From a virus: 44,838 nt of DNA. The notes under the pieces were generated by a model that was given only the letters and a program-made list of their open reading frames with translations, searched no databases and was not told the DNA's origin. This document shows, in pieces, positions 25,836-43,114 of the stretch. Position 1 is the first letter of the stretch. Each line of letters opens with the position of its first letter. Position numbers and translations under genes: made by a program. The stretch lies in IMG/VR virus record IMGVR_UViG_3300045970_001348, positions 1 through 44,838 of that record, one strand, 5' to 3'.

Positions 25836-26134
25836 CCCCCCGCCAACGCCGCGAGCAGAACGCATCCGACTGGAAGGCGCAGATGGCCACGCCCGATGGG
25901 CGCCGCGTCATCTGGGCCATCCTGTCGCGCGCCGGCCTCTTCCGGTCGAACTACGCCGTCGTGCCCGATCCCGGCGTCCACCTGGCCATCGGCGAGGGCG
26001 AACGCAACGTTGGCCTGTTCGTGCTGGACGAACTCAACACCCACGCGCCGGGCGCCTTCGCACGCATGCTGACCGAGGTCCAGGCCAAAAGTACGCATAG
26101 CACCGATTCCGCCGCCGACACTGCCGAGCAATGA
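25832..26134 (+). CDS. Small phage protein upstream of scaffold and capsid (100 aa)
   Basis: The central GRRVIWAILSRAGLFRSNYA and GEGERNVGLFVLDEL match a small family encoded next to podovirus scaffold and capsid genes (family knowledge); the role is unknown. GTG start overlaps the GH5-like stop (GTGA). The tail (KSTHSTDSAADTAEQ) contains the coding for the second AGTACGCATA copy. Confidence 0.75.
   Translation: MTPRQRREQNASDWKAQMATPDGRRVIWAILSRAGLFRSNYAVVPDPGVHLAIGEGERNVGLFVLDELNTHAPGAFARMLTEVQAKSTHSTDSAADTAEQ
26090..26099 (+). promoter_or_regulatory. AGTACGCATA element, copy 2
   Basis: Exact copy in the 3' end of the 100-aa gene, 31 bp before the ATG of the scaffold gene. No hairpin is obvious after it. 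Confidence 0.5.
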
Positions 26135-26646
26135 ACACCCAAGTCGCCCCCGCAGTAGCAGCGCCCGCAGCACCGGCCGCCCCGGCCGCGCCCGTTGCGA
26201 ATGCTGCTCCCGCCGCCCCGGCCCCTGCTGGCGCTGCGGCCCCCGCGGAGCCTGCCGCCGCCGCGCCCGCAGCCCCTGCTGCAGCAGCGCCGGCCGCTCC
26301 CGCAGAGCCCGCCAAGCTGACCGTCGAAGAGTACGGCACGCAGCAGGCCGCCGAAATCGCGCGGGTCCACGCCGAGTGGAAAGCCGATATGGCCGCCGAC
26401 CCGGAGCTGGGCGGCGAGAAGCTCGACGAGAACCTGGCCAAGGCACGCGCAGTGCTCGAGGCCGCTGGCAGCCCGAAGCTGGCTGCCCTGCTCGACAAGA
26501 CCGGCCTGGGCAACCAAGTCGAATTCGTGCGCCTGTTCCTGAAGCTCGGCCCGGCGGTCCTCCCCGACCGCTTTGTGCCAGGCACCAAGGCCGCGAGCGC
26601 GCCCAAGTCGCGGGCGCAGGAAATGTTCCCCGGAATGAACCCCTGA
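26131..26646 (+). CDS. Head scaffolding protein-like, Ala/Pro-rich N-terminus
   Basis: 171 aa. Residues 6-60 are almost all A and P. The C-terminal half (WKADMAADPELGGEKLDENL, then GSPKLAALLDKTGLGNQVEF) matches the conserved core of podovirus scaffolds, with motifs ELGG and GLGN, and ends in a short basic part before MFPGMNP. It lies 14 bp ahead of the capsid gene, the usual scaffold position. It has weak ribosome sequence (CCGAGCA), so it may depend on coupling with the gene upstream. Confidence 0.8.
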   Translation: MNTQVAPAVAAPAAPAAPAAPVANAAPAAPAPAGAAAPAEPAAAAPAAPAAAAPAAPAEPAKLTVEEYGTQQAAEIARVHAEWKADMAADPELGGEKLDENLAKARAVLEAAGSPKLAALLDKTGLGNQVEFVRLFLKLGPAVLPDRFVPGTKAASAPKSRAQEMFPGMNP

Positions 26647-28422: not shown

Positions 28423-29082
28423 TTGGCATCCGCGATCGACATCTGCAACCTGGCCCTGGCCAACCTCGGAGACGCTGCGGACGTGGCCAGCCTGGATGAA
28501 GGCAGCGCCCAGGCCAGCCTGTGCGCGCGCTTTTACCCCATCGCGCGCAACGAGATCCTGGCCCTTCACGACTGGTCGTTCTCGGTGCGCCGCACCGCGC
28601 TGTCCGAGGTGGTGAACACCGCATCGACCTGGACCTACGCCTACGCATTGCCCTCCGACATGCTGCGGGCCATCGCGGTCATCGACCCCACGGTCGGCGA
28701 CGACGACAGCACGGCGCTGGCCGGCACTCCGGTGGCGATCAGTCCCCAGCCATACAAGATCGAGTCGGCAGCCGACGGCGCGTCACTGCTCTACACCAAC
28801 GTCGTCGGCGCGGTTCTGCGCCACACGGTCTTGGTGATCGACACCGGCCGGTATCCGCCCCCGCTGGTGACCGCGATGGCCGCCGGGCTGAGTGGATTCC
28901 TGGCTGGCCCCATCATCAAAGGCGACACCGGCGCGGCGGCGGCCCAGCGCTGGCGCGCGATCGCCTACGGTCGCGACGGTAGGGGCGGCCTATTCGGCCA
29001 GGCAGTGACATTCGACGCCAACCAGCAAAGCGTCAACACCTACCGCTCGGGCCACCCGGTGGCCTGGCTGACGGCACGCTGA
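28423..29082 (+). CDS. Tail tubular protein A-like (T7 gp11-type)
   Basis: 219 aa, TTG start supported by AGGGGGA 5-8 bp upstream. ASAIDICNLALANLGDAADV with ARFYPIARNEILALHDWSFS are the signature opening of tail tubular A proteins; YALPSDMLRAIAVID and a C-terminal FDANQQSVNTYRSGHP follow. It forms the ring joining portal and nozzle. Its stop overlaps the next ATG. Confidence 0.9.
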   Translation: MASAIDICNLALANLGDAADVASLDEGSAQASLCARFYPIARNEILALHDWSFSVRRTALSEVVNTASTWTYAYALPSDMLRAIAVIDPTVGDDDSTALAGTPVAISPQPYKIESAADGASLLYTNVVGAVLRHTVLVIDTGRYPPPLVTAMAAGLSGFLAGPIIKGDTGAAAAQRWRAIAYGRDGRGGLFGQAVTFDANQQSVNTYRSGHPVAWLTAR

Positions 29083-31382
29083 TGGCACGCTCTTACTCGC
29101 GATCGTTCTCTGGCGGCGAGGTCACCGACGAGTTCTGGGGTCAGATCGGTGACGCCAAGTTCCAGACGGGCCTGGCCCTGTGCAAGAACTTCCGAGTGCT
29201 GCCCCACGGGCCCATCCAGAACCGGGCTGGATTCGAGTTCGTGCGGGAGGTCAAAGACAGCACCAAGGCCGTGCGCCTGATCCCGTTTGAATACTCGACC
29301 GACCAGACGATGGTGCTCGAGGTGGGCGAGGGCTACGTTCGCTTTCACACCCAAGGCGCCACGCTGCTGTCGGGGGCCTCGCCCTACGAGGTGGCAACCA
29401 CCTACCTGGCCAGCGAACTGTTCGCGATCAACTACGTGCAGTCGGCTGACGTGCTGACCTTTGTGCACCCCGCCCACTTGCCGGCCGAGCTGCGCCGCCT
29501 TGGCGCACTGAGCTGGATCCGGTCCGATATCTCGTTCGTCACCACCCTGACGCCCCCCGCCACGGTCAGCGCAACGGCTACCGTTGGCGGCACACCGGGC
29601 ACGCCCACGCTTCACAAGTACGCAGTGACCTCGGTGGCCAGCAACAACATCGACGAATCGCTGATCTCCGCAACCTGTCGTGGGGTGAGCACCACGATCA
29701 GCGCCATCACCCAGGCCAACCCGGGCCTGATCACTTGCAGCGCTGCCCACGGGCTGTCTGTCGGCGACCCAGTGGAGCTCTTCTCCGTCCTCGGCATGAC
29801 TGCGATCAACGCCGCAACCTACACGGTCAACACCGCGCCCAGCACCACCACGCTGACGCTGGCCCTGAACGGCACGCCGGTGGACACCACCGCCTTCGTG
29901 GCCTACGTCAGCGGGGGCTTCGTAGTCAGGTTGGGCGTCATGAACAACATCTTCGACTCCGGCGCGAAGAATGTGATCACCTGGACGGCAGCCACCGGCG
30001 CTCTGCGCTACCACGTCTACAAGCAAAGCAACGGTCTGTGGGGCCACGTCGGCCAGGCTTCCGGTCTGAGCTTCACCGACGACAACATCACGCCCGACAT
30101 CAGCAAGACCCCGCCCGAATCCAACGACCCATTCTCGGCGGCCAATGAGTACCCTGGCGCGGTCACCTATTTCGAGCAGCGGCGCGTCTTCGGCGGCTCG
30201 ACAAACAAGCCACAGACACTCTGGTTCACACGCTCGGGCACCGAGTCGAACATGAGCTATTCGATCCCGACCCGGGACAGCGACAGCATCACGTTCCGTG
30301 TCGTGGCCCGCCAGGCCAACACCGTGCGCCACCTGGTGCCGATCGCTAGTCTGGTGGCCCTGACAAGCTCTGCCGAGTGGCGCATCAGCAGCGGAAGCGG
30401 GGATGCCCTCACGCCAGCAAGCGTGGATGTCAAGCCCCAGTCCGCAGTCGGCGCCGGCCAGGTCCAGCCCGTGCTGGTCAACTCCAACGTGATCTTCGCG
30501 GCTGCCCGCGGGGGGCATATGCGCGAGCTGGCCTACAACTGGCAGTACCAAGGCTTCATCACCGGCGACTTGAGCCTGCGCGCGCCGCACCTTTTCGACG
30601 GGCTCGAGATCGTCGACATGGCCTTCAGCAAGTCGCCATACCCGACAGTCTGGGCGGTGAGCAGCAACGGCAAGTTGCTGGGCCTGACCTATGTCCCAGA
30701 GCAGCAGATAGGCGCCTGGCACCAGCACGACACCGACGGGCTATTCGAGTCCATCTGCTGCGTGGCCGAGGGCGTGGAGGACGTGCTCTACGCCATCGTG
30801 CGCAGGACCATTAACGGGGTCAGCAAGCGATACGTCGAGCGCATGCGCCCCCGGGCCTTTGCCACCCAGGCCGACTGCTTCTTCGTCGACTGTGGGGGCA
30901 CCTATTCGGGCACGGCAACGGCCACGATCACCGGCGCCACATGGCTCGAGGGAAAGACCATCAGCGTGCTCGCCGACGGCGCCGTGCACCGGCAGGTCGT
31001 GGTCACTGGCGGCGCCTTCACGCTGGACTATGCGGCATCCAAAATCCAGTTTGGGCTGCCCATCATCGCCGACGGCATGGGGCTTCCACTGACCATCGAC
31101 GCGCCTGGCTATGGGCAGGGCCAGTTCAAGGCAATCAACCGGGTGTTGCTGCGCGTGAAGGACACCAGCGGGCTGCGGGTGGGCCCGGCCTTCGACAAGC
31201 TCTCTGAGATGAAGACCCGCACCGACGAAGCCTACGGCATGCCGCCGAGCCTGCAGAGCAGGGTCGTCGAGGTGGTCAACAAGTCTGCGTGGACCGACGA
31301 CGGTCAGGTGTGCTTTCGCCAGCAGGACCCCCTGCCGGCCACGATCAGCTCCATCAAGGTCGAATACGTCCTGGGCGGCTAG
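29082..31382 (+). CDS. Tail tubular protein B-like (T7 gp12-type nozzle)
   Basis: 766 aa. MARSYSRSFSGGEVTDEFWG and the stretch CKNFRVLPHGPIQNRAGFEF, VRLIPFEYSTDQTMVLEVGE, QSADVLTFVHPAHLPAELRR are typical of phage nozzle proteins. An inserted Thr/Ser-rich domain (about 160-330) carries variable surface loops, and the last third has VWAVSSNGKLLGLTYVPEQQ and ERMRPRAFATQADCFFVDCG. It seals the tail end. Its TAG stop lies in the third AGTACGCATA copy. Confidence 0.92.
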   Translation: MARSYSRSFSGGEVTDEFWGQIGDAKFQTGLALCKNFRVLPHGPIQNRAGFEFVREVKDSTKAVRLIPFEYSTDQTMVLEVGEGYVRFHTQGATLLSGASPYEVATTYLASELFAINYVQSADVLTFVHPAHLPAELRRLGALSWIRSDISFVTTLTPPATVSATATVGGTPGTPTLHKYAVTSVASNNIDESLISATCRGVSTTISAITQANPGLITCSAAHGLSVGDPVELFSVLGMTAINAATYTVNTAPSTTTLTLALNGTPVDTTAFVAYVSGGFVVRLGVMNNIFDSGAKNVITWTAATGALRYHVYKQSNGLWGHVGQASGLSFTDDNITPDISKTPPESNDPFSAANEYPGAVTYFEQRRVFGGSTNKPQTLWFTRSGTESNMSYSIPTRDSDSITFRVVARQANTVRHLVPIASLVALTSSAEWRISSGSGDALTPASVDVKPQSAVGAGQVQPVLVNSNVIFAAARGGHMRELAYNWQYQGFITGDLSLRAPHLFDGLEIVDMAFSKSPYPTVWAVSSNGKLLGLTYVPEQQIGAWHQHDTDGLFESICCVAEGVEDVLYAIVRRTINGVSKRYVERMRPRAFATQADCFFVDCGGTYSGTATATITGATWLEGKTISVLADGAVHRQVVVTGGAFTLDYAASKIQFGLPIIADGMGLPLTIDAPGYGQGQFKAINRVLLRVKDTSGLRVGPAFDKLSEMKTRTDEAYGMPPSLQSRVVEVVNKSAWTDDGQVCFRQQDPLPATISSIKVEYVLGG

Positions 31383-31390: not shown

Positions 31391-31418
31391 AGGGGGTCCC
31401 CGGGGCCTACCTTATGCG
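31385..31418 (+). repeat. Hairpin after element copy 3
   Basis: CGCATAAGG (31385-31393) pairs perfectly with CCTTATGCG (31410-31418); the 16-nt loop contains CCCCGGGG. The stem sits between element and start codon, 2 bp ahead of the ATG, and hides the only AGG-rich sequence available as a ribosome site. Confidence 0.65.
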
Positions 31419-31420
31419 CT

Positions 31421-31933
31421 ATGGCCACCACTCCCACCAGCTCATGGTCCAGCGTCTCCGTATGGTCCAGTGCCATCGGGTCCATCCTCGCCGCCCAGGG
31501 TCAGCAGGACGCGCTGCGCTTTCAGGCAGAGATGGCCGACATCAACGCCAAGGCCGCCGACAACGCCGCTCGGGGCGCCCTGTTCGCGGGCCAGCGCGAG
31601 GGGCAGCGCAGCATGCTGTCCACCGCCAACCTCAAGAGCGCCCAGACTGCCAAGTTTGCGGCCAGTGGCGTGGACCTGGGTGTGGGCAGCGCGGCGCGCA
31701 CGCTGGCCAGCACCGACATCATGGGCAAGATCGACGCCAACACCATCGCGGCAAACGCAGTGCGCTCGGCGTGGGGCTACCGCACCCAGGGCACGAGCTA
31801 CCGGAACGACGCGTTGACGAGGCGCAGCGCCGCGGACTCGATCAACCCCTGGCTGGAGGGCGCCTCTAGCGCGCTGACTACCGCCGGCCGCGTCGACAGG
31901 GAGTGGTACGCACTGAACCGGGTGAGGGGTTGA
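31421..31933 (+). CDS. Internal virion protein A-like (T7 gp14-type)
   Basis: 170 aa. Hydrophobic N-terminal part (SSWSSVSVWSSAIGSILAAQ), then LRFQAEMADINAKAADNAAR, GQREGQRSMLSTANLKSAQT, AASGVDLGVGSAARTLASTD and SAWGYRTQGTSYRNDA, the sequence order of podovirus gp14-like ejection proteins. No good ribosome site is exposed: a hairpin ends two bases before the ATG. It should be ejected into the host envelope to form the first part of the DNA channel. Confidence 0.85.
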   Translation: MATTPTSSWSSVSVWSSAIGSILAAQGQQDALRFQAEMADINAKAADNAARGALFAGQREGQRSMLSTANLKSAQTAKFAASGVDLGVGSAARTLASTDIMGKIDANTIAANAVRSAWGYRTQGTSYRNDALTRRSAADSINPWLEGASSALTTAGRVDREWYALNRVRG

Positions 31934-31934
31934 C

Positions 31935-33743
31935 ATGCGCGTCCCCGTCTACGACAACCTGCAGACCTCGGTCTCGTCACCCGGCCCGGCCACCACCGCG
32001 ACACCCTCGGGACCGCAGGCCAGCGAGATCGGCGCCCGCCAGAACGCCAGGCTGAACGACGCCGCCGGCGGCTACGCCTCGGCGCAGAACCAGATCGCGG
32101 CGGCCATGCAGGAGGAGGTCAACTCCACTCGCGTGGACGACGCCACCAACCAGTACGTCCGCGGCCTGACCGCAGCGCGCGTCGAGGCGATGCAGCTCAA
32201 AAGCAAGGCGGCGCTGGAGAGGCCCGACGGCAAGAGTCTTCCAGACGAGTACGGGGAGAAGCTCAAGAGTCTGTCGGACGAGATCTCCAAGGGCCTTGGA
32301 AACGACGCGCAGCGGCGCGCGTTTTCGATGAACGCGGGGCACCTGGACAACCAATTCCAGGGGGCCCTGACAGAGCACATGGTGCAGCAGCAGGGCGTCT
32401 ACCGGCAGGAGACGCGCGCGGCCACTCGTGAGACGGCCACGAGCAATGGAATCCTGCTCTGGGGCGACGACAAGGAACTGGAGAAGTCCACGGCAGCAAT
32501 CGCGGCCTCGGTGCTGGCAGAGGCCAAGGAGCAGGGCCTGGACCCGGGCAAGGACAAGGCGATCCTCGACACCATGTTCCAGAAAGCGATCAGTCCCATG
32601 CACGCCGGCGTCATGCAGTCGATGGTCACTGCCGGCCGCGCCGACAAGGCCCTGGACTACTACACCGCCAACAGCGAGCGCATGACCCCGGCCGTGCGGG
32701 CGCACATGCTGCCCCTCATCCAGGAGCGAGTCGACGGTCAAAAGGGTGACGTGATCGCCGATGCGGCCTGGCGCTCGATCGGGCCGCAGGGTGCCAATGA
32801 CCCGGTCCTGATCTCCGACATGGACAACATCGCGCGGCGTGCGCTCAAGGATGAGCCCAGCGCACTGAAGCACGCACTGGCCGGCATCAGGGAGCGCGCC
32901 ACCGCCTTCAACGGCCAGCAGGCCGAGATGAATACGGCAGCCAAGAACGCAGTGGTGGGCATGCTCGTCGCCAACCAACCGATGTCTGATGTCCAGCGGT
33001 CCGCACCCTGGGGCGCGCTTCCCGCCACCGAGCAAAACAGCATCTTGCGGGATCAAGAGGCGCGCGCGGAGCACCGGGCCAACTACCAGGCCGCGCTGGA
33101 ATCGAGGGACTACACCAAGGCCCAACGCCTCCGCGCAGAGCAGGAATACAGGGGCACGCTCGCGAGGTACGCCTTCCAAGACCCGCGCGTGCTGGCCGGC
33201 ATGAAGCGTGAGGAAGTCGTCGCTCTGGCCCTGGGCCCGATGGGCCAGGAGAACGCGGGGCGGGTGCTCGCCACCTATGACTCCATCGTCAAGACCCCCG
33301 AAAAGCTGCGGTCTGCGTCCATCGACCATGACCAGTTCAACACCATCGCCAAGTCGGTCGGCCTGGATGCCTATAGCCCGAAGAGCGACGACGAGAAGGC
33401 TTCGATCTCGCTGGCCCGCGACCGGGTCAACGACGGCATCGACGCCTGGCAGCGTGCACACGGCAACGCAGAGATGCCTCGCGATGAGAAGGAAAAGCTG
33501 ATGCGCGGCATGGCCGCCACCGCCGTCCTCACGAAGGGGCGCGTCTGGGGGACCAACGAAGCGAGCCTGCTGACCGTCAAGGAAGAGGACGCGAAGCGGG
33601 TCGTCGTTCCCGAGAGCCAGCGCCCCTTGGTGGTTGACAGCATCCGCCGCGAGAGGGGTGACCCCAACTACACCCCCACCGACTTGGAAGTCGGCGCCAA
33701 GTACCTGCGAAAGCTGAAGCGCGATGCCGCAACTCCTCGGTAA
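31935..33743 (+). CDS. Internal virion protein B-like (T7 gp15-type)
   Basis: 602 aa, almost all helical with many charged residues (KSKAALERPDGKSLPDEYGE; FSMNAGHLDNQFQGALTEHM) and no enzyme motifs. Length, place between a gp14-like and a giant protein, and mode of overlap (20 bp) match the second ejection protein of T7-like phages. It should line the trans-periplasmic channel. Confidence 0.82.
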   Translation: MRVPVYDNLQTSVSSPGPATTATPSGPQASEIGARQNARLNDAAGGYASAQNQIAAAMQEEVNSTRVDDATNQYVRGLTAARVEAMQLKSKAALERPDGKSLPDEYGEKLKSLSDEISKGLGNDAQRRAFSMNAGHLDNQFQGALTEHMVQQQGVYRQETRAATRETATSNGILLWGDDKELEKSTAAIAASVLAEAKEQGLDPGKDKAILDTMFQKAISPMHAGVMQSMVTAGRADKALDYYTANSERMTPAVRAHMLPLIQERVDGQKGDVIADAAWRSIGPQGANDPVLISDMDNIARRALKDEPSALKHALAGIRERATAFNGQQAEMNTAAKNAVVGMLVANQPMSDVQRSAPWGALPATEQNSILRDQEARAEHRANYQAALESRDYTKAQRLRAEQEYRGTLARYAFQDPRVLAGMKREEVVALALGPMGQENAGRVLATYDSIVKTPEKLRSASIDHDQFNTIAKSVGLDAYSPKSDDEKASISLARDRVNDGIDAWQRAHGNAEMPRDEKEKLMRGMAATAVLTKGRVWGTNEASLLTVKEEDAKRVVVPESQRPLVVDSIRRERGDPNYTPTDLEVGAKYLRKLKRDAATPR

Positions 33744-36700
33744 CCCCTACGACGAACCGGCCGGCGCGGCGCCAACGCCCAGCGCGCCCGGCAACCCCTA
33801 CGACGAGGAAAGCCCCACCTCGCGCGTTCGCGCCAGCGTCGCGGTAGCCAGCGGCAGCAACCCCGACCAGGTTGCGGCGCAACGCAGGCTGGCCGCCTAT
33901 CTGAACGTCGCCCCGGCCGTTGCTGAGTACATGCCCGACGAGGTCAAGCGCCTCGCTGCGACCAAGCAGATCGAGGCCGACACGGTGGCGGCGCCAGTCC
34001 TGCAGCGCCGGTACGGTGACCCCGACTTCGCCAAGCTGGCGGTGGACGACAGCGGGCCCCTCTCCAAGCTCGAGAAGGCAATCGGCGGGGCCGTTGCCTA
34101 CATGATGGGCGCAGACCAGCGCGGGGGCCTGCCAGGCGCTCTGCACCGCGGGATTTACTACAACTCGGTGGAGTCCACCGCAGGGGCTTTCCGGGGCATC
34201 GCCGAGAACCTGGCCGGCGCAGGACTGGGCCCGGCGCAGTTTGTCGCCGACGGGTTCGGCAAGATCGGGCGTGATGCCGCAGCAGCACGCGATGCCCGCT
34301 ACCCCCCGGTGGCGGATCCTGGCACTGTGCGGTCTGGCGTCGACAGCGGCGTCGAATCGGCAGCCCAGGCCCTGAAGTACGCACCCCTGGCCTTCCTTGG
34401 CCCGCCTGGCATTGCCGCTGCCCTGGCTGGCATGGTGGCAGAGGCGGGCGGCGCCACCTACCAAAAGGATCGCGAGGCCGGGGTGGACCCGCTCCGCTCG
34501 ACCGTGCACGCTGCTGCTGACACGGTGGCCGAGTACACCTTCGAGAAATACGCAGGCGCGGCAAAGTTCCTCGAGAAGCTGGCGGCGGGGACACCGGCAG
34601 CCAAGCTCATGATGTTCGAGATCACGAGCGAGATGCCGTCGGAGATTGCCACCACTCTGTGGCAGAACTTCAACGAGTGGGCAGTCATCCACCCTGATAA
34701 GTCGGTCAAGGACTTCGTGGCCGAACAGCCCGAGGCAATCGCCCAGACAGCAATCGCAACCCTCGTGGGCGGCAGCATCCAGGTCGGCGCCGGTAAGGCC
34801 ACGATGAAGGTCGCCGAGCAGGTCATGGGCCACGAGGCCGAGATCACACGTGCCGGCCGCGCCGCCGAGATGCTGCAGGAGCAACTCAAGCTGGCGCTGG
34901 ACAGCAAGCTGCGCGAGCGGGACCCCGAGCAGTTCCGCGCGGTGCTGCAGCAGATGGCCGCCGGCGCCGAGGGCGCGCCGCAGAGCGTCTTTGTCGACGC
35001 GGAGAAGCTCAACCAACTGCCCCCCGAGGTGCTCGGCACGCTGCCCGAGGACGTGCTTGCGCAAATGGCCGATGCCTTGACCAGCAACGGCACGGTGGAG
35101 ATCCCCATCGGCGCTGCGCTGGCAGTCGCGCCGGGCACGCCGCTGGAGCAGACCCTGGTCGAGCACGGCCGGGTCGGGGACCCCGCGGCAACCACTCAGT
35201 TTGAAGCCAAGGAGGCCGGCAAGAAGGCGGGCGAGTACCTCGAGCAGCAGTCGGCCAGCGTCATCCAGCAGGCGCAGGACGCGCAGGCCGCCCAGGCATC
35301 CCACGACGCCGTGCGCCAGGGCATTCTGGATCAGCTCACCGCCACCGGCCGGTTCCGCCAGGCGGTCAACGAGGGATACGCCACCTGGACGGCAGCCTTC
35401 TACACCACGATGGCCGGGCGCCTTGGCATGACGTCCGAGGAGATGGCGGCCAAGTACCCGCTACGCATCGTGGGGGAGGCGGGGCAGGGTCAGACGCTAA
35501 ACGCAGGCGGTGTGGGCAGCCTTTCCGACGTTACCCACCAGTGGACCGCATCGGGCATTGACAGCACCGTCAGCGAGAAGGACAAGGTCATTACCTTGTC
35601 GAAGATCGCGCTGGAACCCGAGGCGCGCAAGCAGGGGGTGGGCACCGCCGCCATGCAGGCGTTGACCGAGTACGCCGACCGCACCGGCCAGCGCATCGTG
35701 CTGTCGCCGGCAACCGACTTTGGCGCCACGAGCAAGGGCCGTCTGGTGGCCTTCTACAAGCGCTTTGGATTCGTCGAGAACAAGGGCCGGAGCAAAGACT
35801 TCACGGTGTCGGAGTCCATGCTGCGAGAGCCGCAGGCCCGCACTGATGAAACGACCGGTCTGCCGCTGAACAGCGACGGCACAGTCACCGTCTACCACCA
35901 CACCTCGGCAGCCAACGCCGCGGAGATCCAGCGCACGGGCCTTCTGAAGTCGGCCGGTGAGCCGGACCTGTACTTCACCACGACCGCAGAGACCGATACC
36001 GGCTATGGCGACACGGCTGTGCCGTTCCGCGTGAAGCCCGAGCGCCTGCTGCTTGATGATGAGTTTCCGGGCGGCCGGCAAGACTTCAAGGTCGAGACCA
36101 AGAACGCGGCCAAAGCGCGGCGCGTGCGGTTCTTGCCGGACGGCCAAGGGGTTCTGGAGCAGTCTGGTACAACCCAACCTATGCACCCCAGCCGCGCAGC
36201 GTGGGGTCAGGACTTCCCGGACGCGCGCATTCTTGTGGGCGAGTCGGCGGTCAAGCGGCATCCCGACTACCACGCTGCCAAAACCGGGGATGCTGCTGCG
36301 GCAGCGCGCCTGGTGCAAGACTTGGTCGCGCCCGAAGCGATCCAATCCATTCGGCAAGAACTTGCAGGACGCCGTCCTCTGGTCGCAAGCATCCACGCGC
36401 AGGAAGAGCAGGGAGTCAACGCCATACCAGAGGCCCTGGCCGACTTGATCGCCGCGCGGCTTGGACTGGAAACTGACGACTCTCTGGTACAGACCAACAT
36501 CGTCAACCACACCGGCGCCGATGGATTCAGCCGTCTGGCTCGTCAAGCGCTGTTCTCCGGGGACGTGAAGAGCGGATCCGAATACCTGATCGTCGATGAC
36601 TTCATCGGCCAGGGCGGAACGATGGCGAACTTCCGGGGTCACATCCAGCGCTACAACGGCAAGGTGATCGGCGCGGTCGCGTTGACCGGAAAGCCACACT

Positions 36701-39700
36701 CTGCGAAGATCGGCCTGTCGGATCAACAACTTGGCGAGCTGCGAGACAAACATGGAGAACTCGAAGACTGGTGGCGCAAGCGCTTCGGCTTCGGCTTCGA
36801 TGCGCTCACCCAATCCGAAGCCCGCTACCTCGCACGCACCGCGGATGCTGACACCGTCAGAGATCGTGTCGCTGCAGCAGAACAAGCGGGAAACGGCGGC
36901 AACGGTCAAGGCTTTGCTGGCGGCAGCTTAGAGCAGAGCGCCCCGGCGGCTTCGCCGGGCCCCCTCGCCCAGCTCGCCCGGGGCACCTTCACCCCGGCCA
37001 ACCTCGAGCTGGCACTCAGCCCGACCGCCGACCTCTCCACCTTCTTCCACGAGACCGGCCACTTCTTCCTCGAGGTGATGGCCGACCTGGCCAGCCAGCC
37101 CGGTGCGCCTGTCGAAATTGCGGCCGACATGAAGGTGCTGCTGGACTGGTTCGGCGTGCCCGACCTGGCCACCTGGCACGGCATGACCCTGGATCAGCAG
37201 CGCCCGCACCACGAGCGCTTCGCCGAGGGCATCGAGCAGTACATCATCGAGGGCAAGGCGCCCAGCGTCGAACTGCTGCCCCTCTTCCGGCGCTGGCGCA
37301 CCTGGATGCTGTCGGTCTACAAGAGCCTGCAGCAGTTCGTCAACGGCACGTCCCCAGGCCCTGAACTCAGCCCCGAGGTGCGCAAGGTCTTCGACCGCAT
37401 GCTGGCCAGCGAGGAGCAGATCAAGCAGACCGAGGAGGTCCTGGGCCTGGTGCCCGAGGACGACGCCACCCAGTCGGCAATCGAGCGACTGACCTCGCGC
37501 AGCATCCGCGATCTGAAGTGGAGCGTGGCCGCCGTCGGTCGCGAGATCAAAAAGCTGCAGGCCCAGGCCGCCGGGCTGCGCAAGGAGGTCCAGGCCGAGG
37601 TCGAGGCCGAGGTCGACCAGATGCCGGAGTTCCGCGCCAAGGCGGCGCTGGATGCACTGAAGGTCAACCCCGACCTGTCGGCCGCCACCGCAGAGTGGAA
37701 GGCCAAGCGTACCACCGCACTGGCCGACGCGCGGGACGCACTGAAGGCCGCTCTCTACGCCACCAACCCCGGGGCTACCGGCCTGAAGAAGGGCCAGTTG
37801 TTCGCGAAGAACAAGCGCAGCATCGAGAACCAGGCCGAGGCGGCGGTGCTGCAGTGGGAACAAGCTAACCCCAGGCCAACGGCCGGGCAGAACGCGACCG
37901 ATCAGGACATGGCCACCGTGGCCGACTCGTTCGGCTTCCCAGACACCGAGACCATGCTCGCCGCGATCGACGCCACTGGCAAGCGCGCCGACCTAGTCGA
38001 GGCGATGACAGACCAGCGCATGCTCGAGGAGCACGGCGACCTGGTCGATGAGCAAGCCATGCGCGAGGCCGCTGCCGAGGCGGTGCACAACCGGGCCCGG
38101 GCCAAAAGCCTGGCCACCGAACTGAAAGCGCAGGCTGACGCGCTGGGGGCCAGCAAGGACACCGGCAAGGTCAACGCCGCCGGCAGCAAGATCACGGTCA
38201 ACGTGCTCGCCGAGGCTGCCAAGCAGTTCGCACAGAACATCGTCGCGCGCACCGTGCTGAAAGACCTGAAGGCCAAGGCATGGCAGCACCAGGCCGCCGA
38301 ACGGCGCTCGGCCAGCGCCTGGCAGAAGGCCACCGCCGCCGGCAAGACCGAGGAGGCCATCAAGGCCAAGCAGGACCAGATGCTGAACCACGCTGCCGCG
38401 CGTGCGGCGCTGGATGCGATCAGCGAGGCCAAGGACATCGTGGCCTTCTTCCGGCGCGTCGTGAAAGACGGCGACGAGAAGACCGTCGAGAAGGGCCGTG
38501 ACCCAGACGTGGTCAACGCCGCGCGCGCCGTGCTGGCCATGTACGGGGTGGGTGCAAAGGGCGGCAAGTCGGCCATCGACTACATGCAGGTGCTGGAGAC
38601 CAACGACCCGGTGACCTTCGCGGCGGTGCAGGACTCTCTGCGCGCCAGCATCGGCAACGCCCAGCCGCTGCAGGCCCTCACGATGGAGCAGCTTCAGTCG
38701 CTCCACGAAGAGATCCAGTCCATGTGGCGCCTGGCCAGGCGAACTCGGCAGATGGAGGTGGCCGGCAAGCTGATGGACATCGACGATGCGGCCCAAGAGC
38801 TCTCCGACCGGATGAGCGCCATCGGCGTGCCGCTCGAGGCGCCCGGCACGAACAGCGCGCTGACGCCAGCGGAGACACGTTCCCGGTGGTTGCAGTTCGC
38901 CGGCAGCATCCTGCGTCGAGTCGAGCAGTGGAGCGAGGGCATGGACGGCCGCTACGGGGGCCCATTCCGGCGCCTGGTCTTCGGGCCCGTCAAGGCGGCA
39001 GCCGACGCCTACCGGGCCGACAAGGTGGTCTACCTGAAGCGCTACGCCGCGCTGGTCGACAACGTCGCACCGGCACTGAGCAAGGGTCTGATCGCCGCGC
39101 CCGAACTGGGCTACACCTTCGGCAAGGGGCACAACGGCATCGGCCACGCCGAGCTGCTGCACGCCATCCTGCACACCGGCAACGAGAGCAACAAACGCAA
39201 GCTGCTGCTGGGCCGCAAGTGGGCCACCGAGAACCTCGACGGCACGCTGGACACCACGAAGTGGGACGCTTTCGTCAAGCGCATGCAGGACACTGGCATG
39301 CTGCGCAAGGAGCACTACGACTTCGCCCAGGGTGTGTGGGATCTGCTCGAGCAGACGAAGCCCCTGGCCCAGAAGGCCCACCGCGACGTCTTCGGACGCT
39401 ACTTCGCCGAGGTGACCGCCGACAGTTTCGACACCCCGTTCGGTGCCTACCGGGGCGGCTACGTGCCGGCCCAGGCAGACCCGCGCATCGTGCCCGACGC
39501 AGACATGCGGGCGCTGGCCAACCTCGAGAACGAGAGCATGAGCTTCTCCTTCCCGACCACAAGCAAGGGCTTCACCAAAGGACGCGTCGAGTACAACCGG
39601 CCGCTGATGCTGGACCTGCGCACCATCGGCCAGCACATCGACAAGGTGCTGCTCTTCGCGCACATGGAGTCGGCGGTGCGCGACGTCAACAAGCTGCTCT

Positions 39701-40956
39701 CGCGCAAGCCCGTGAGCCAGCCTCTGGGCAAGATCGACCCGACCATCTATTCCGGCATGCTGACGCCCTGGCTGAACCGCAGCGCGCGCCAGGTGGTCGA
39801 GACTCCGATCGTCGGCGACGGTGGCGTTAGCCGGGTGCTTTCGGCGATGCGTGGGCGCGCGGGCGCCGCGCTGATGTTCGCCAACGTCAGCAACTCCATC
39901 CAGCAGATCACGGGATTCTCTGGCGCCTTCGCCAAGTTCAAGGCCGACGACATGAAGTCGGACCTGATGCGCTCGACCGCTCGCTTCATCCGCAGCCCCA
40001 AGAAGATGGCCGAGGCGGTGTCCGCGGCAAGCCCCTACATGAAGGGCAGGATGGACAACGAGGTGGCCGCCATGCAGGACGCGATGAACGCGATCCTCCT
40101 GGATCCGAGCCTCTACGAGCGCGCCCAGGCATGGACCAACAGGCACGCCTACTTCCTCCAGTCCGCGCTCGACAACACGATGGGCCCGATCATATGGAGC
40201 GCCGCCTACAACGCGGCGGTCAAGAAGGGCCTGGCCGGCGCCGACGCCGTGGGCTACGCCGACGGCGTGATTCGCCAGACGCAGGGCAGCACGATGCCCG
40301 AGGACGTGAGCCGAATCGAAACAGGGCCAGCCTACGCTCGGGTCTTCACCCAGTTCATTGGCTACTTCAACATGATGGCCAACACCAACGGCACCGCGCT
40401 GAAGCAGATCAGCAGCGAGATCGGCTTGAAGAAGGGCGCTGGCAAGGCCCTGATGGTCGTGACGATGGGCATGCTGGTCCCCCTCTGGGTCGCCGAGGCG
40501 ATCGCCCAGGCTATGCGCGGGGGCCCCGACGACCCGGACGGCGACGGTTGGCTCGACGACTGGCTCGCCGCGGTCTTCGGGATGGGCACGATCAAGGGCA
40601 TGTTCGCGATGGTGCCCTTCATCGGCCAGCTCGCCAACGCCGGCCTTAACCGCTTCAACACCAACCCGGCCGACGACCGGGTGAGTCTCAGCCCAGCGGT
40701 GAGCTTGCTTGAGTCGGGCGCCGGGGTGCCCTACGACGTCTACAAGTACCTCATCGGGGAGGGCAAGGCCCGCACCACGGTGCGCGACGTTGCCAGCCTT
40801 GTGAGCATCGCCACGGGACTGCCTGCGACAGCGCTGGCCAGGCCGCTTGGCTACCTGGCCGGGGTCCAGCAGGGTGACATCTCGCCCACGGGACCGGCCG
40901 ATGCGGCCCGCGGTCTGATCACCGGCAACCCGAGCCCAGAAAGCAAAACAAAGTAG
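33724..40956 (+). CDS. Giant polyvalent ejection protein (2410 aa)
   Basis: In the place of T7 gp16, but twice as long and multi-domain. Two GNPYDE copies open it. Domains in order: helical region with hydrophobic stretch (about 215-245); GNAT-like fold (about 615-690) with RKQGVGTAAM and GRLVAFYKRFGFV; ART-like domain (about 718-812) starting VYHHTSAANAAEIQRTG; phosphoribosyltransferase-like domain (about 820-995) with YLIVDDFIGQGGT; metallopeptidase-like STFFHETGHFF (HExxH near 1109) followed by a downstream Glu helix (FAEGIEQYI); long coiled regions (1200-1800); a C-terminal LPD38-like region ending with two hydrophobic segments (about 2238-2320). These are parts of phage 'polyvalent proteins' (family knowledge), which enter the cell with the DNA and may disarm host defences. 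Confidence 0.88.
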   Translation: MPQLLGNPYDEPAGAAPTPSAPGNPYDEESPTSRVRASVAVASGSNPDQVAAQRRLAAYLNVAPAVAEYMPDEVKRLAATKQIEADTVAAPVLQRRYGDPDFAKLAVDDSGPLSKLEKAIGGAVAYMMGADQRGGLPGALHRGIYYNSVESTAGAFRGIAENLAGAGLGPAQFVADGFGKIGRDAAAARDARYPPVADPGTVRSGVDSGVESAAQALKYAPLAFLGPPGIAAALAGMVAEAGGATYQKDREAGVDPLRSTVHAAADTVAEYTFEKYAGAAKFLEKLAAGTPAAKLMMFEITSEMPSEIATTLWQNFNEWAVIHPDKSVKDFVAEQPEAIAQTAIATLVGGSIQVGAGKATMKVAEQVMGHEAEITRAGRAAEMLQEQLKLALDSKLRERDPEQFRAVLQQMAAGAEGAPQSVFVDAEKLNQLPPEVLGTLPEDVLAQMADALTSNGTVEIPIGAALAVAPGTPLEQTLVEHGRVGDPAATTQFEAKEAGKKAGEYLEQQSASVIQQAQDAQAAQASHDAVRQGILDQLTATGRFRQAVNEGYATWTAAFYTTMAGRLGMTSEEMAAKYPLRIVGEAGQGQTLNAGGVGSLSDVTHQWTASGIDSTVSEKDKVITLSKIALEPEARKQGVGTAAMQALTEYADRTGQRIVLSPATDFGATSKGRLVAFYKRFGFVENKGRSKDFTVSESMLREPQARTDETTGLPLNSDGTVTVYHHTSAANAAEIQRTGLLKSAGEPDLYFTTTAETDTGYGDTAVPFRVKPERLLLDDEFPGGRQDFKVETKNAAKARRVRFLPDGQGVLEQSGTTQPMHPSRAAWGQDFPDARILVGESAVKRHPDYHAAKTGDAAAAARLVQDLVAPEAIQSIRQELAGRRPLVASIHAQEEQGVNAIPEALADLIAARLGLETDDSLVQTNIVNHTGADGFSRLARQALFSGDVKSGSEYLIVDDFIGQGGTMANFRGHIQRYNGKVIGAVALTGKPHSAKIGLSDQQLGELRDKHGELEDWWRKRFGFGFDALTQSEARYLARTADADTVRDRVAAAEQAGNGGNGQGFAGGSLEQSAPAASPGPLAQLARGTFTPANLELALSPTADLSTFFHETGHFFLEVMADLASQPGAPVEIAADMKVLLDWFGVPDLATWHGMTLDQQRPHHERFAEGIEQYIIEGKAPSVELLPLFRRWRTWMLSVYKSLQQFVNGTSPGPELSPEVRKVFDRMLASEEQIKQTEEVLGLVPEDDATQSAIERLTSRSIRDLKWSVAAVGREIKKLQAQAAGLRKEVQAEVEAEVDQMPEFRAKAALDALKVNPDLSAATAEWKAKRTTALADARDALKAALYATNPGATGLKKGQLFAKNKRSIENQAEAAVLQWEQANPRPTAGQNATDQDMATVADSFGFPDTETMLAAIDATGKRADLVEAMTDQRMLEEHGDLVDEQAMREAAAEAVHNRARAKSLATELKAQADALGASKDTGKVNAAGSKITVNVLAEAAKQFAQNIVARTVLKDLKAKAWQHQAAERRSASAWQKATAAGKTEEAIKAKQDQMLNHAAARAALDAISEAKDIVAFFRRVVKDGDEKTVEKGRDPDVVNAARAVLAMYGVGAKGGKSAIDYMQVLETNDPVTFAAVQDSLRASIGNAQPLQALTMEQLQSLHEEIQSMWRLARRTRQMEVAGKLMDIDDAAQELSDRMSAIGVPLEAPGTNSALTPAETRSRWLQFAGSILRRVEQWSEGMDGRYGGPFRRLVFGPVKAAADAYRADKVVYLKRYAALVDNVAPALSKGLIAAPELGYTFGKGHNGIGHAELLHAILHTGNESNKRKLLLGRKWATENLDGTLDTTKWDAFVKRMQDTGMLRKEHYDFAQGVWDLLEQTKPLAQKAHRDVFGRYFAEVTADSFDTPFGAYRGGYVPAQADPRIVPDADMRALANLENESMSFSFPTTSKGFTKGRVEYNRPLMLDLRTIGQHIDKVLLFAHMESAVRDVNKLLSRKPVSQPLGKIDPTIYSGMLTPWLNRSARQVVETPIVGDGGVSRVLSAMRGRAGAALMFANVSNSIQQITGFSGAFAKFKADDMKSDLMRSTARFIRSPKKMAEAVSAASPYMKGRMDNEVAAMQDAMNAILLDPSLYERAQAWTNRHAYFLQSALDNTMGPIIWSAAYNAAVKKGLAGADAVGYADGVIRQTQGSTMPEDVSRIETGPAYARVFTQFIGYFNMMANTNGTALKQISSEIGLKKGAGKALMVVTMGMLVPLWVAEAIAQAMRGGPDDPDGDGWLDDWLAAVFGMGTIKGMFAMVPFIGQLANAGLNRFNTNPADDRVSLSPAVSLLESGAGVPYDVYKYLIGEGKARTTVRDVASLVSIATGLPATALARPLGYLAGVQQGDISPTGPADAARGLITGNPSPESKTK

Positions 40957-40993: not shown

Positions 40994-43114
40994 ATGACGA
41001 TCAGCACCACCACCCGCAGCGCTGGGCCTTTCCTGGGGGCCGGCGCGGTCATCGCGGCGCCCTTTAGCTTCAAGGTCTTCTCGACATCGGACCTCTCGGC
41101 CTACAAGACCAGCTCGGGGGTCAATGTCACACTGGTCCTGGACGTCGACTACACAGTGGCGCTGAACGCTGACCAAGACGCTACGCCAGGGGGGACTGTC
41201 ACGACGTCGACCGTCGTGGCCAGCGGCACCAGCGTCTACCTGACATCCCAAGTCGCTGAAACTCAGGGCACCGCGCTTCCCAATGGGGGTCCATGGTTCG
41301 CCAGCGTCGTCGAGGCCGCGCTGGACCGACTGACGATCCTCGTGCAGCAAATACGCTTGGGGGTCTCGCGGTCCATTCGCGCCCCCTTCCCGGAGATCCT
41401 CTCCGAGTTGCCGGGTGCTGCTGCTCGAGCAAACACCACACTGGGCTTCGACAGCCTTGGCAACCCGACGGTGCTGACGCCGGTCAGCGGTAGCGCGACC
41501 GACGTGTTGATCAGCCTTGCCAGCACCGCAACGCCAGGAGGGGCCTCTCGCGTCGGCGTGTATGACGGGGGCAGTTACTATACGGCAACAACCGTAGAGG
41601 GCGCGCTTGCAGAGGCCGGCGCCTACCTCTCGCACATCCGCACTCAGAAGCCCGCGGCGTACAGCCTGCCGCGCTTCTTCCGCGCTCTGCAGCAGTACCG
41701 CCACGATCTGCAGCTACCCGTCTACATCGTGGGATTCGGCTCCTCCGTTGGAGTCGGTGCCACGCTGCCAGCGCCGACCACACAAGCCCCGGTCAACTAC
41801 TTCAAGATCAAGCTCAAAGCCACGCTCGACGCGGGCAACTTGTACAACCTGCAGGTCAGCAATGACAGCGTGAACGGGAGCGCGCTGTCCCAAGTTTCGA
41901 CGGCGCTGGCCGCTGCAGTGACAGCCGGGCACACGCCGAAGTTGTGTGTGCTGGCCTACGGCATGAATGACGCGGCTGTAGCCCTCTACAACAACGGCCA
42001 GACGTTCCCATTCGTGTACACAAACATCATGCAGCACGTCAAAGAGGCCCGAGCGCTCGGAGCCGACGTGATCCTGATGACCACGCCGCATCACAACACG
42101 TCGTACGGCTCAACGCTGTACACCATGCCGGCCGGAATCCCGCAGACTTACCCCACGTCGGTTGCGGCTAATGTTTTGCCAGAGCAGCTTCTTCCGCCGG
42201 CGAGCGCGTCGAACATCACGGCCGACTTTATTGGCACCGGCACCAGCATCACCGTTTCGCACCGGCACTTGCGCGTCAATCAAGCCATGCGCCAGGCGGC
42301 AACGGATGCGGGCGTGCCGCTAATCGACGTTGAGCCGTATTGGTTCAAAGCCATCGCCACCTACGGCGAGGCGGCGCTGTTCGATTCTGGAGAGACAGTG
42401 CACCCGAATCTTCTCGGGCATCAGCAAAGCTACTGGAAGGCCATTGACGAGTTCATTGAAGCCATGTGTCGACAGACCGCCCAGGAAGGCCAGGAGCCGC
42501 GGTTAAATGGCCTCGTCGGGCTGAACACCGACTTGCCTGCAGCCGTGCTTGACGTGCGCCCGCCGTACCCTGACACCACGTCGCCGATTCTGCAGGCTCG
42601 CGCTCGGATCGGCGCACCAGATGGCAACGGCATCAAGGCCGACTGCACGGCTTGGCGCGTTGAGAGTGCCACGGGCGATCTGGTAGGGCTGTCCGCAAAC
42701 ACCGCGACCAACGCGGAAATTGAGGCGTTTCGCAGGCACATCACTGTTGACGGGACCGGCACCATTGCGGCTTACACAGAGGATCGTGCAACCGTCGGAT
42801 CAATTGGCAGCACGTTCAGCAGATTCACTTCTGTGACCTACAACGTGGGAATTGGCGCCACAAGCCCAGCCTTTTCTGTCCCCAACAACTCCGCCGGAAC
42901 GCTTTGGATCACAGGCTATTGCAGCTCGCTGGGTCGTCGTCGCACGCGCGTCGAGTGGGTCTGCAAGGCCGGCGTTATCACCTTCGGAACAGCAGAAAGC
43001 GTCGGAGACGTAGTTTTCACCGGCCCCACTGCGGCGGGCCTGGTGGTCAGTGTCTCGGTGGCCGCGGCGAACACAAATATTGGCTGGGAAATGCAAGTTG
43101 CACAAGGGCTCTAA
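40994..43114 (+). CDS. Tail fibre with SGNH-type esterase domain
   Basis: 706 aa. Residues 1-135 match the T7-type fibre anchor: FLGAGAVIAAPFSFKVFSTS, YTVALNADQDATPGGTV, FASVVEAALDRLTILVQQI. From about 238 an SGNH hydrolase: block I VYIVGFGSSVGVG (S250/S251), block II NDSVNGS (G295), block III LAYGMNDA (N325), block V GETVHPNLLGH (H470 with E467 in place of the usual Asp). The last 200 residues are beta-rich and likely fold as the receptor-binding tip. It probably deacetylates host surface glycan during adsorption. Its start follows a strong hairpin. Confidence 0.86.
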   Translation: MTISTTTRSAGPFLGAGAVIAAPFSFKVFSTSDLSAYKTSSGVNVTLVLDVDYTVALNADQDATPGGTVTTSTVVASGTSVYLTSQVAETQGTALPNGGPWFASVVEAALDRLTILVQQIRLGVSRSIRAPFPEILSELPGAAARANTTLGFDSLGNPTVLTPVSGSATDVLISLASTATPGGASRVGVYDGGSYYTATTVEGALAEAGAYLSHIRTQKPAAYSLPRFFRALQQYRHDLQLPVYIVGFGSSVGVGATLPAPTTQAPVNYFKIKLKATLDAGNLYNLQVSNDSVNGSALSQVSTALAAAVTAGHTPKLCVLAYGMNDAAVALYNNGQTFPFVYTNIMQHVKEARALGADVILMTTPHHNTSYGSTLYTMPAGIPQTYPTSVAANVLPEQLLPPASASNITADFIGTGTSITVSHRHLRVNQAMRQAATDAGVPLIDVEPYWFKAIATYGEAALFDSGETVHPNLLGHQQSYWKAIDEFIEAMCRQTAQEGQEPRLNGLVGLNTDLPAAVLDVRPPYPDTTSPILQARARIGAPDGNGIKADCTAWRVESATGDLVGLSANTATNAEIEAFRRHITVDGTGTIAAYTEDRATVGSIGSTFSRFTSVTYNVGIGATSPAFSVPNNSAGTLWITGYCSSLGRRRTRVEWVCKAGVITFGTAESVGDVVFTGPTAAGLVVSVSVAAANTNIGWEMQVAQGL

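Follow-up and report, generated by a model that had tools for sequence, protein, structure and literature searches.

Whether and where the polyvalent proteins of phages are cut was left open by Iyer et al. 2017 in the available parts of that paper (PMC5512222). The question arises anew at a locus of a 44,838-base virus record (hereafter the window, meaning the whole of this stretch of DNA), where an open reading frame at positions 33724-40956 of the + strand encodes 2410 aa from ATG to stop, in agreement with the coordinates and length given in a preliminary description of the sequence. Its product joins unrelated activities in one chain (GNAT, a PRTase motif and HExxH) and carries in addition an LPD22 domain, which makes it a polyvalent protein.

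Position and homology of the 2410-aa protein

Genes of the window follow the order large terminase, portal-type head-tail connector (PF12236), GP7-type major capsid protein (PF20911) and tail proteins, continuing with an endolysin-like protein, the 2410-aa ORF, a tail fibre and a second endolysin. The immediate neighbourhood is the following:

29082-31382: tail protein, upstream neighbour
31414-31869: small ORF without a family match
31935-33743, + strand: endolysin-like protein of 602 aa (phrog_10475, E 1.2e-36)
33724-40956, + strand: polyvalent ejection-type protein, the whole 2410-aa ORF, homologue of BPP-1 Bbp10 by profile comparison
40994-43114, + strand: tail fibre (phrog_18703, E 5.7e-69)

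The end of the endolysin-like gene and the start of the 2410-aa ORF overlap by 20 bases. Farther upstream, an Ala/Pro-rich protein of 171 aa (26131-26646) bears a 'protease' label through PHROG 458, of which only the last part of the profile is matched; this protein looks like a scaffold protein.

Gene order in the window parallels that of T7 genes 12-17, and the 2410-aa ORF, located between a gp15-like gene and the tail fibre gene, occupies the place of T7 gp16. The assignment to the gp16 position made in the preliminary description therefore stands as far as synteny is concerned; it does not extend to sequence homology, which was not found between the two proteins (hmmsearch E 0.024, two short pieces; hhalign probability 5.7%). 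In the gene order of phage BPP-1 the matching place is held by Bbp10, and profiles of the N- and C-terminal scaffolds described below matched Bbp10 (phrog_9880) with E values of 3e-198 and 0, respectively. Judged from these profiles, the 2410-aa protein is homologous to Bbp10 of the Bordetella phage BPP-1. A tblastn search with the complete protein matched 53 of 50,697 phage records, all of them below 60% identity and with less than 80% of the query covered, and epsilon15 proteins showed no homology to the scaffold profiles (best E 0.048).

The AlphaFold model of the C-scaffold (mean pLDDT 75.1) had no clear match in the PDB and none by Foldseek at E<=0.001; its similarity to the phiM1 ejectosome chain 8vb2_A (Z 5.8, 218 aligned residues) lies below noise level. 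An LPD38-like C-terminal end, proposed in the preliminary description, was not borne out, LPD38 having no Pfam match in the window at E<=1 and none in 18 C-scaffolds (window included) at E<=0.05. The broader proposal of a polyvalent protein in an ejection-protein position is upheld by synteny, by Bbp10 homology and by the complete key residues of four enzyme domains.

Two conserved scaffolds and one exchangeable slot

Comparison of the window protein with the first 26 relatives revealed two conserved blocks and a replaced middle. Loci were pooled (26, the best 80, the best 80 of 163, and 16 more, some repeated) and yielded 166 ORFs with both scaffolds; following removal of 31 duplicates and of two ORFs without a clear N end, there were at least 133 distinct proteins, the window included. 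The parts of the window protein are listed below; in the family counts the C-scaffold is taken as residues 1085-2410, with the peptidase first.

33724-35499, + strand: N-scaffold, residues 1-592, conserved in 133 family proteins
33835-34095, + strand: LPD22, residues 38-124 (Pfam E 1.1e-11, passes the cut-off)
35500-36975, + strand: exchangeable cargo slot, about residues 593-1084, of variable length and often unrelated content in relatives
35515-35838, + strand: GNAT acetyltransferase cargo, residues 598-705 (Pfam, 16-row alignment, fold match)
35839-36123, + strand: ART-like cargo, residues 706-800, with H725/H726, Y750 and D778/D779 (phrog_6170, E 0.0047)
36193-36831, + strand: PRTase cargo of the ComFC/KfrC type, residues 824-1036, with D958 D959 and GGT 964-966
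36976-37368, + strand: HExxH metallopeptidase-like domain, residues 1085-1215, with H1109 E1110 H1113 and H1163 E1164
37369-40953, + strand: helical C-scaffold, residues 1216-2410, with hydrophobic segments at 2238-2300 (phrog_9880, AlphaFold model)

LPD22 was present in 16 of 16 N-scaffolds, window included. Neither this N-terminal domain nor the architecture of slot and joints had figured in the preliminary description. MuF had no match in the window protein or in the 16 N-scaffolds, and an N-terminal packaging signal of the NPYD type, considered as a shared feature, was rejected, being present in only six of 99 proteins.

The slot ranges from about 0 to 1501 aa in the 133 proteins listed, with a median of 391. 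The census of its contents left out eight of the 133, with slots shorter than 60 aa, and nine near-duplicates; the remaining 116 distinct slots were analysed with Pfam in two lists of 60 and 57, the window being in both. ART-PolyVal (PF18760) matched 31 of the 60 and 16 of the 57 slots at E<=0.001 and had no match in the window at E<=1, while GNAT models were found in up to five and nine members of the two lists. Further cargo includes PBECR1, 3 and 5 nucleases, DUF7178 (in 11), LPD3, 23 and 37, as well as RelA/SpoT, SAM-lyase, ParB and ASCH, each in one or two members. The PRTase was found in the window alone among the 116 slots listed.

Exchange of cargo in the slot is fast and free. Among 125 proteins with slots of at least 60 aa, less than 20% of either slot is shared by 193 of the 287 pairs whose C-scaffolds are 60-70% identical, and by 25 of the 60 pairs with C-scaffolds 90-100% identical. 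L158 and L152 carry unrelated cargo between C-scaffolds that are 98.9% and N-scaffolds that are 97.6% identical. In the set with scaffolds 93-99% identical, to which these two belong together with L182, L144, L146, L147 and L188 (an Achromobacter contig), cargo varies from one member to the next between an ART, a GNAT, a pair of consecutive modules and short cargo of other kinds.

Identities of the N- and C-scaffolds are weakly coupled (Spearman 0.20, 6328 pairs), a hint of recombination between the halves as well or of unequal evolutionary rates. Second inserts of 120-230 aa lie inside or just after the HExxH domain in L006 (1118-1345), L008 (1033-1153) and L011 (1955-2136); L074 has an ART-like VVYHGG downstream of its HExxH part, and the polyvalent genes of L013 and L020 are spread over two or three frames, through either sequencing errors or genuine breaks.

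As to the enzymes of the window protein, the GNAT domain scores above its Pfam cut-off (Acetyltransf_1, 30.1 versus 20.7 bits, residues 619-683), and RKQGVG at 635-640 fits the pattern R/Q-x-x-G-x-G/A; its R and first G do not vary across 16 alignment rows. AcrVA5 has acetyltransferase activity. AcrVA5 (6iuf; Z 9.1, 95 of 96 residues), which owes its anti-CRISPR name here to the PDB title of that entry, was considered as a near fold of the GNAT model (residues 598-702, 35515-35829); the resemblance is a lead and not a claim, because an ordinary GNAT, the spermine/spermidine acetyltransferase 2fl4, ties with it (Z 9.0) and the profile comparison reached only E 0.86.

The ART-like motifs VYHHTSA (at 723), LYFTT (at 749) and LLDDEFP (at 776) supply H, Y and D in order, invariant in five of five aligned sequences and fitting the H-Y-D rule given in the available parts of PMC5512222. 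The ART piece of the window had no tblastn match in phages, and the ART profile gave nothing relevant against the PDB. In the PRTase motif VDDFIGQGGT (at 957), DD and GGT are invariant in seven of seven sequences. The Pfam match of this domain is below the cut-off (21.6 versus 26.3 bits); its model is nearest to Helicobacter pylori ComF (7p0h; Z 12.5, rmsd 2.9, 156 residues), which agrees with the connection to ComFC made by Iyer et al. (PMC5512222, available parts). For HETGH at 1109, HExxH is kept in 133 of 133 family proteins, a count that is partly circular because some loci were found with patterns including HExxH, and in 62 of 62 proteins whose loci were found via the N-scaffold and which are free of this circularity; the second HE is kept in 132 of the 132 proteins with letters there. 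The GNAT, ART-like, PRTase-like and HETGH motifs picked out in the preliminary description are thus present and, by their conservation, beyond chance.

The completeness of catalytic residues, for which the preliminary description had proposed a check, is borne out in sequence for all four domains. Support from structure is uneven: in the AlphaFold model of residues 588-1260 (mean pLDDT 74.4, 13 alignment rows) the ART is of low confidence and the peptidase part consists of helices only, where a zincin should have a beta sheet, so that the folds of these two are putative. No ART or peptidase appears among the fold matches listed, which excludes nothing, because PRTases fill those matches.

A motif at slot edges and module ends

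A joint motif, [LFY]-x-Q followed by a residue that is mostly small, recurs at most slot edges and many module ends; GQLDQ-cargo-ILNQ-ARGAYN is an example. Three joints are found in the window protein (the slash follows the joint Gln):

36148-36165, + strand: joint 1, GVLEQ/S, Q813, where a predicted strand ends, within residues 794-826, which are modelled at low confidence
36925-36939, + strand: joint 2, SLEQ/S, Q1071, in the stretch 1058-1093 with pLDDT under 50
36961-36975, + strand: joint 3, PLAQ/L, Q1083, C edge of the slot, in the same stretch 1058-1093 with pLDDT under 50

GNAT and ART in the window follow each other without a joint. With the motif broadened to [LFYMI]xQ, 104 of the 133 proteins have it at the N edge (mirror motif, 43), 111 at the C edge (mirror, 18) and 85 at both. 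The window, with TLNA, is among the 29 proteins without the motif at the N edge, 18 of which (window included) have LN[ATDESG] there; 22 of the 133 are without it in the C-edge stretch tested. Over whole slot interiors the broad motif shows no net excess (403 versus 413 for the mirror). The motif is near 55% of 380 starts of shared modules inside slots (mirror 30%) and near 40% of 409 ends (mirror 27%), compared with 27% of random points. Seven slots are near-empty (<30 aa), and six of them keep one joint by eye; L077 does not.

A stricter version of the motif, applied to modules other than ART in 88 family proteins and 57 other proteins, marks 85 of 279 ends and 92 of 252 starts within the family versus 8 of 226 ends and 16 of 214 starts outside it. 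The ends of ARTs in slots carry the joint motif in 46 of 48 cases (mirror, 2). When the query was trimmed before the tail, the motif was present, among the matches listed (best 80), at 26 of 26 ART ends in 21 scaffold-bearing proteins (mirror, 4) and at 6 of 77 ends in other proteins (mirror, 8), several contigs of the 26 being also among the 48; these ART-end counts leave out matches that stop early in the profile. The contrast between ends in and out of the scaffold corresponds to p 5e-19 if the ends were independent, and some 'non-family' ART proteins in it may be misfiled, because a scaffold may go unseen in ORFs truncated at the end of a locus.

Outside the scaffold, ART tails have other signatures (FSR, RRSADR, KSEDR), which tend to agree per protein. 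In 10 hand-picked scaffold-less proteins (the near-copies L229/L230, one odd tail of L278, a repeat tail of L257, and L267 being left out) the mean 4-letter identity of tails was 0.68 within a protein and 0.29 between proteins, a result matched in 0 of 5000 shuffles. 5-mers from ART tails are repeated elsewhere in their own scaffold-less protein 37 times, compared with about 13 expected from other proteins, but three near-copies (L229, L230 and L282) supply 12 of the 37, and this excess was set aside.

A tree of 129 ART domains contained 64 in the scaffold, all 64 with the motif, and 65 outside, six with it. The best tree, which is built from a short alignment of 164 columns, requires at least 34 changes of scaffold label, few of these switches falling on supported branches. 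Supported branches offer five independent pairs, of which an average of 4.9 have a tail that goes with the scaffold, the opposite never being seen (p 0.0625); five pairs are too few alone. The joint motif is not simply inherited; it tracks the scaffold.

A scan of viral contigs for the PRTase gave no match with the window sequence alone and 42 further loci with the alignment, in other polyvalent-size or capsid-linked proteins. Among the flanks listed for those loci, most are of other types; L329, the sole locus with the window C-scaffold, resembles the window in having ELEQ and GLEQ. Genes related to this cargo are also found in 169 plasmid records (E<=1e-3). In plasmids L287 and L288 the PRTase directly follows a kfrB-type gene beside ParA/ParB genes, relatives in some other records are labelled kfrC, and L205, L289 and L290 are further relatives. 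In Moraxella phage Mcat8 (L201:2969-4708) it forms the C-terminal part of an annotated coat protein beside the portal gene.

Possible processing and relation to known systems

Joints that are regularly marked, lie between unrelated enzymes and stand beside an invariant HExxH in a protein of ejection-type position find their best explanation as processing sites. We lean modestly towards the view that the 2410-aa protein is a virion polyprotein, cut at its joints by its own HExxH peptidase so that cargo is freed; packaging, ejection, cleavage and the identity of the cutter are what we infer from sequence and context. The N-scaffold with LPD22 and the helical C-scaffold with its hydrophobic segments would constitute the frame of an ejection protein which, to judge from position and homology, would be packaged in the head and leave with the DNA. 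Ejection proteins must leave through the narrow tail. The single slot between the scaffolds would hold the cargo, in the window GNAT and ART followed by PRTase, and the peptidase at its C edge would cut after the joint Gln. The predicted pieces of the window protein are N-scaffold-GNAT-ART (residues 1-813, 85.6 kDa), PRTase (814-1071, 27.5 kDa) and peptidase-C-scaffold (1084-2410, 144.1 kDa); GNAT-ART would stay on the N-scaffold because the N edge is TLNA and GNAT and ART have no joint between them. Freed enzymes would act in the cytoplasm, with the frame remaining at the membrane. Their targets (protein acetylation, ADP-ribosylation, and PRPP or DNA-entry chemistry) are guesses from the domain families. 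New cargo would enter by recombination, after which its tail would be changed to match the joint of the scaffold that has received it.

Peptidase release of polyvalent units was proposed in general terms by Iyer et al., and the available parts of the same paper also hold a case that counts against it, the N4 virion RNA polymerase, which carries such a peptidase yet is packaged uncut (PMC5512222). The cutter need not be in cis, because 21 of 61 scaffold-less ART proteins (11 of the 50 with 1500 aa or more) are without HExxH in the ORF read, some of these ORFs being truncated. Signatures at the joints are of several types, [LFY]xQ in the window family and FSR, RRSADR, TRSASR, KSEDR and LESRR elsewhere. 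More tentatively, with the chances slightly on the unfavourable side, each scaffold lineage might have a processing signature of its own, served by a cognate protease and imposed by re-coding on the tails of cargo that moves in. If true, head-packaged effectors would form an exchangeable polyprotein system.

The joints could also be processing sites for a separate protease, of prohead type or from the host, with the HExxH domain doing something else, an arrangement we consider unlikely. It has parallels in the prohead protease of the giant phage SPN3US, which cuts ejection (E) proteins at AXE, and in T4 gp21, which cuts Alt and internal proteins (both in the available parts of PMC7411985), and some scaffold-less ART proteins have agreeing joints and no HExxH in the ORF read. 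In the window family, however, HExxH is invariant next to the slot, and the capsid proteins of BPP-1 appear uncleaved according to the accessible portion of PMC3863775. The PHROG 'protease' label at 26131-26646 covers just the Ala/Pro-rich scaffold-like protein; among the ORFs tested there was no other recognisable protease, a weak point because three head-cluster ORFs are without a match and the ORFs were partly searched.

Distinctly unlikely, in our opinion, is a reading without any cutting, in which the joint serves simply as a linker or is a tail that modules share by descent, and cassettes circulate within the family together with their ends. Relatives do share cassettes, a common BLAST match being found for 1337 of 7750 slot pairs, and the low model confidence of joint regions is what linkers also show. 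Descent, however, does not account well for ARTs that are interspersed in and out of the scaffold, with the label changes and supported pairs described above and with tails that follow the scaffold; joints also accompany non-ART modules and mark six of the seven near-empty slots, and a plain linker would need no fixed [LFY]xQ. It is highly improbable that the repeated joints serve cassette exchange as arms for recombination at the DNA level: among near-identical phages that lend themselves to alignment (L158, L144 and L147 versus L152), DNA identity does collapse near the joint at one or both edges, but about four amino acids are kept and no more, and codons are shared among the joints of one gene less than expected (39 versus 49.9 in 102 pairs; for Gln codons, 106 versus 137.1 in 200 pairs), therefore the constraint acts on the protein.

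For a polyprotein cut by its own peptidase, the joints supply exact candidate cut sites, and they offer a means of predicting module borders. The nearest known proteins are Bbp10 and its relatives (phrog_9880, genus Rauchvirus), which have the N- and C-scaffolds and the place in the gene order in common with the window protein and differ in their cargo, which is another and shorter one (a 161-aa slot in L173); such records are annotated as Bbp10, hypothetical or crystallin-motif protein. T7 gp16 and the tetrameric ejection protein of phiM1 share the gene position and C-terminal hydrophobic segments. No enzymes of the window-cargo kind are described for T7 gp16, whereas the window protein carries them, and in the window, unlike in T7 and phiM1, the endolysin-like gene is separate and precedes the 2410-aa ORF.

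Ejection proteins of SPN3US and T4 are cut after a short motif by a prohead protease, with propeptides removed (PMC7411985, available parts); in the window family, the predicted cuts would fall between modules. The MuF polymorphic toxins of temperate phages, as presented in the accessible portion of PMC5576092, resemble the family in combining a constant head-protein part with an exchangeable effector, but there MuF is N-terminal and the toxin C-terminal, whereas the window family has an internal slot and several enzymes at once.

Polyvalent proteins as described in the available parts of PMC5512222 have the same set of domains (ART, GNAT, PRTase, MPTase, LPDs and PBECR) in a phage head context, and release by an embedded peptidase was suggested there by analogy with viral polyproteins, as in our reading of the window; those parts mention neither a constant frame around a single exchangeable slot nor a recurring joint motif or cleavage site. 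Family members, domains and the idea of peptidase release are therefore already known. The literature searched, which comprises few subscription papers and several sources in part, contained no fixed scaffold with a single slot, no turnover of cargo among near-identical phages and no joint that tracks the scaffold. These three features are what is new here: near-identical phages can encode different enzymes in this polyvalent protein, and the contents of the slot are a route to new early counter-defence enzymes.
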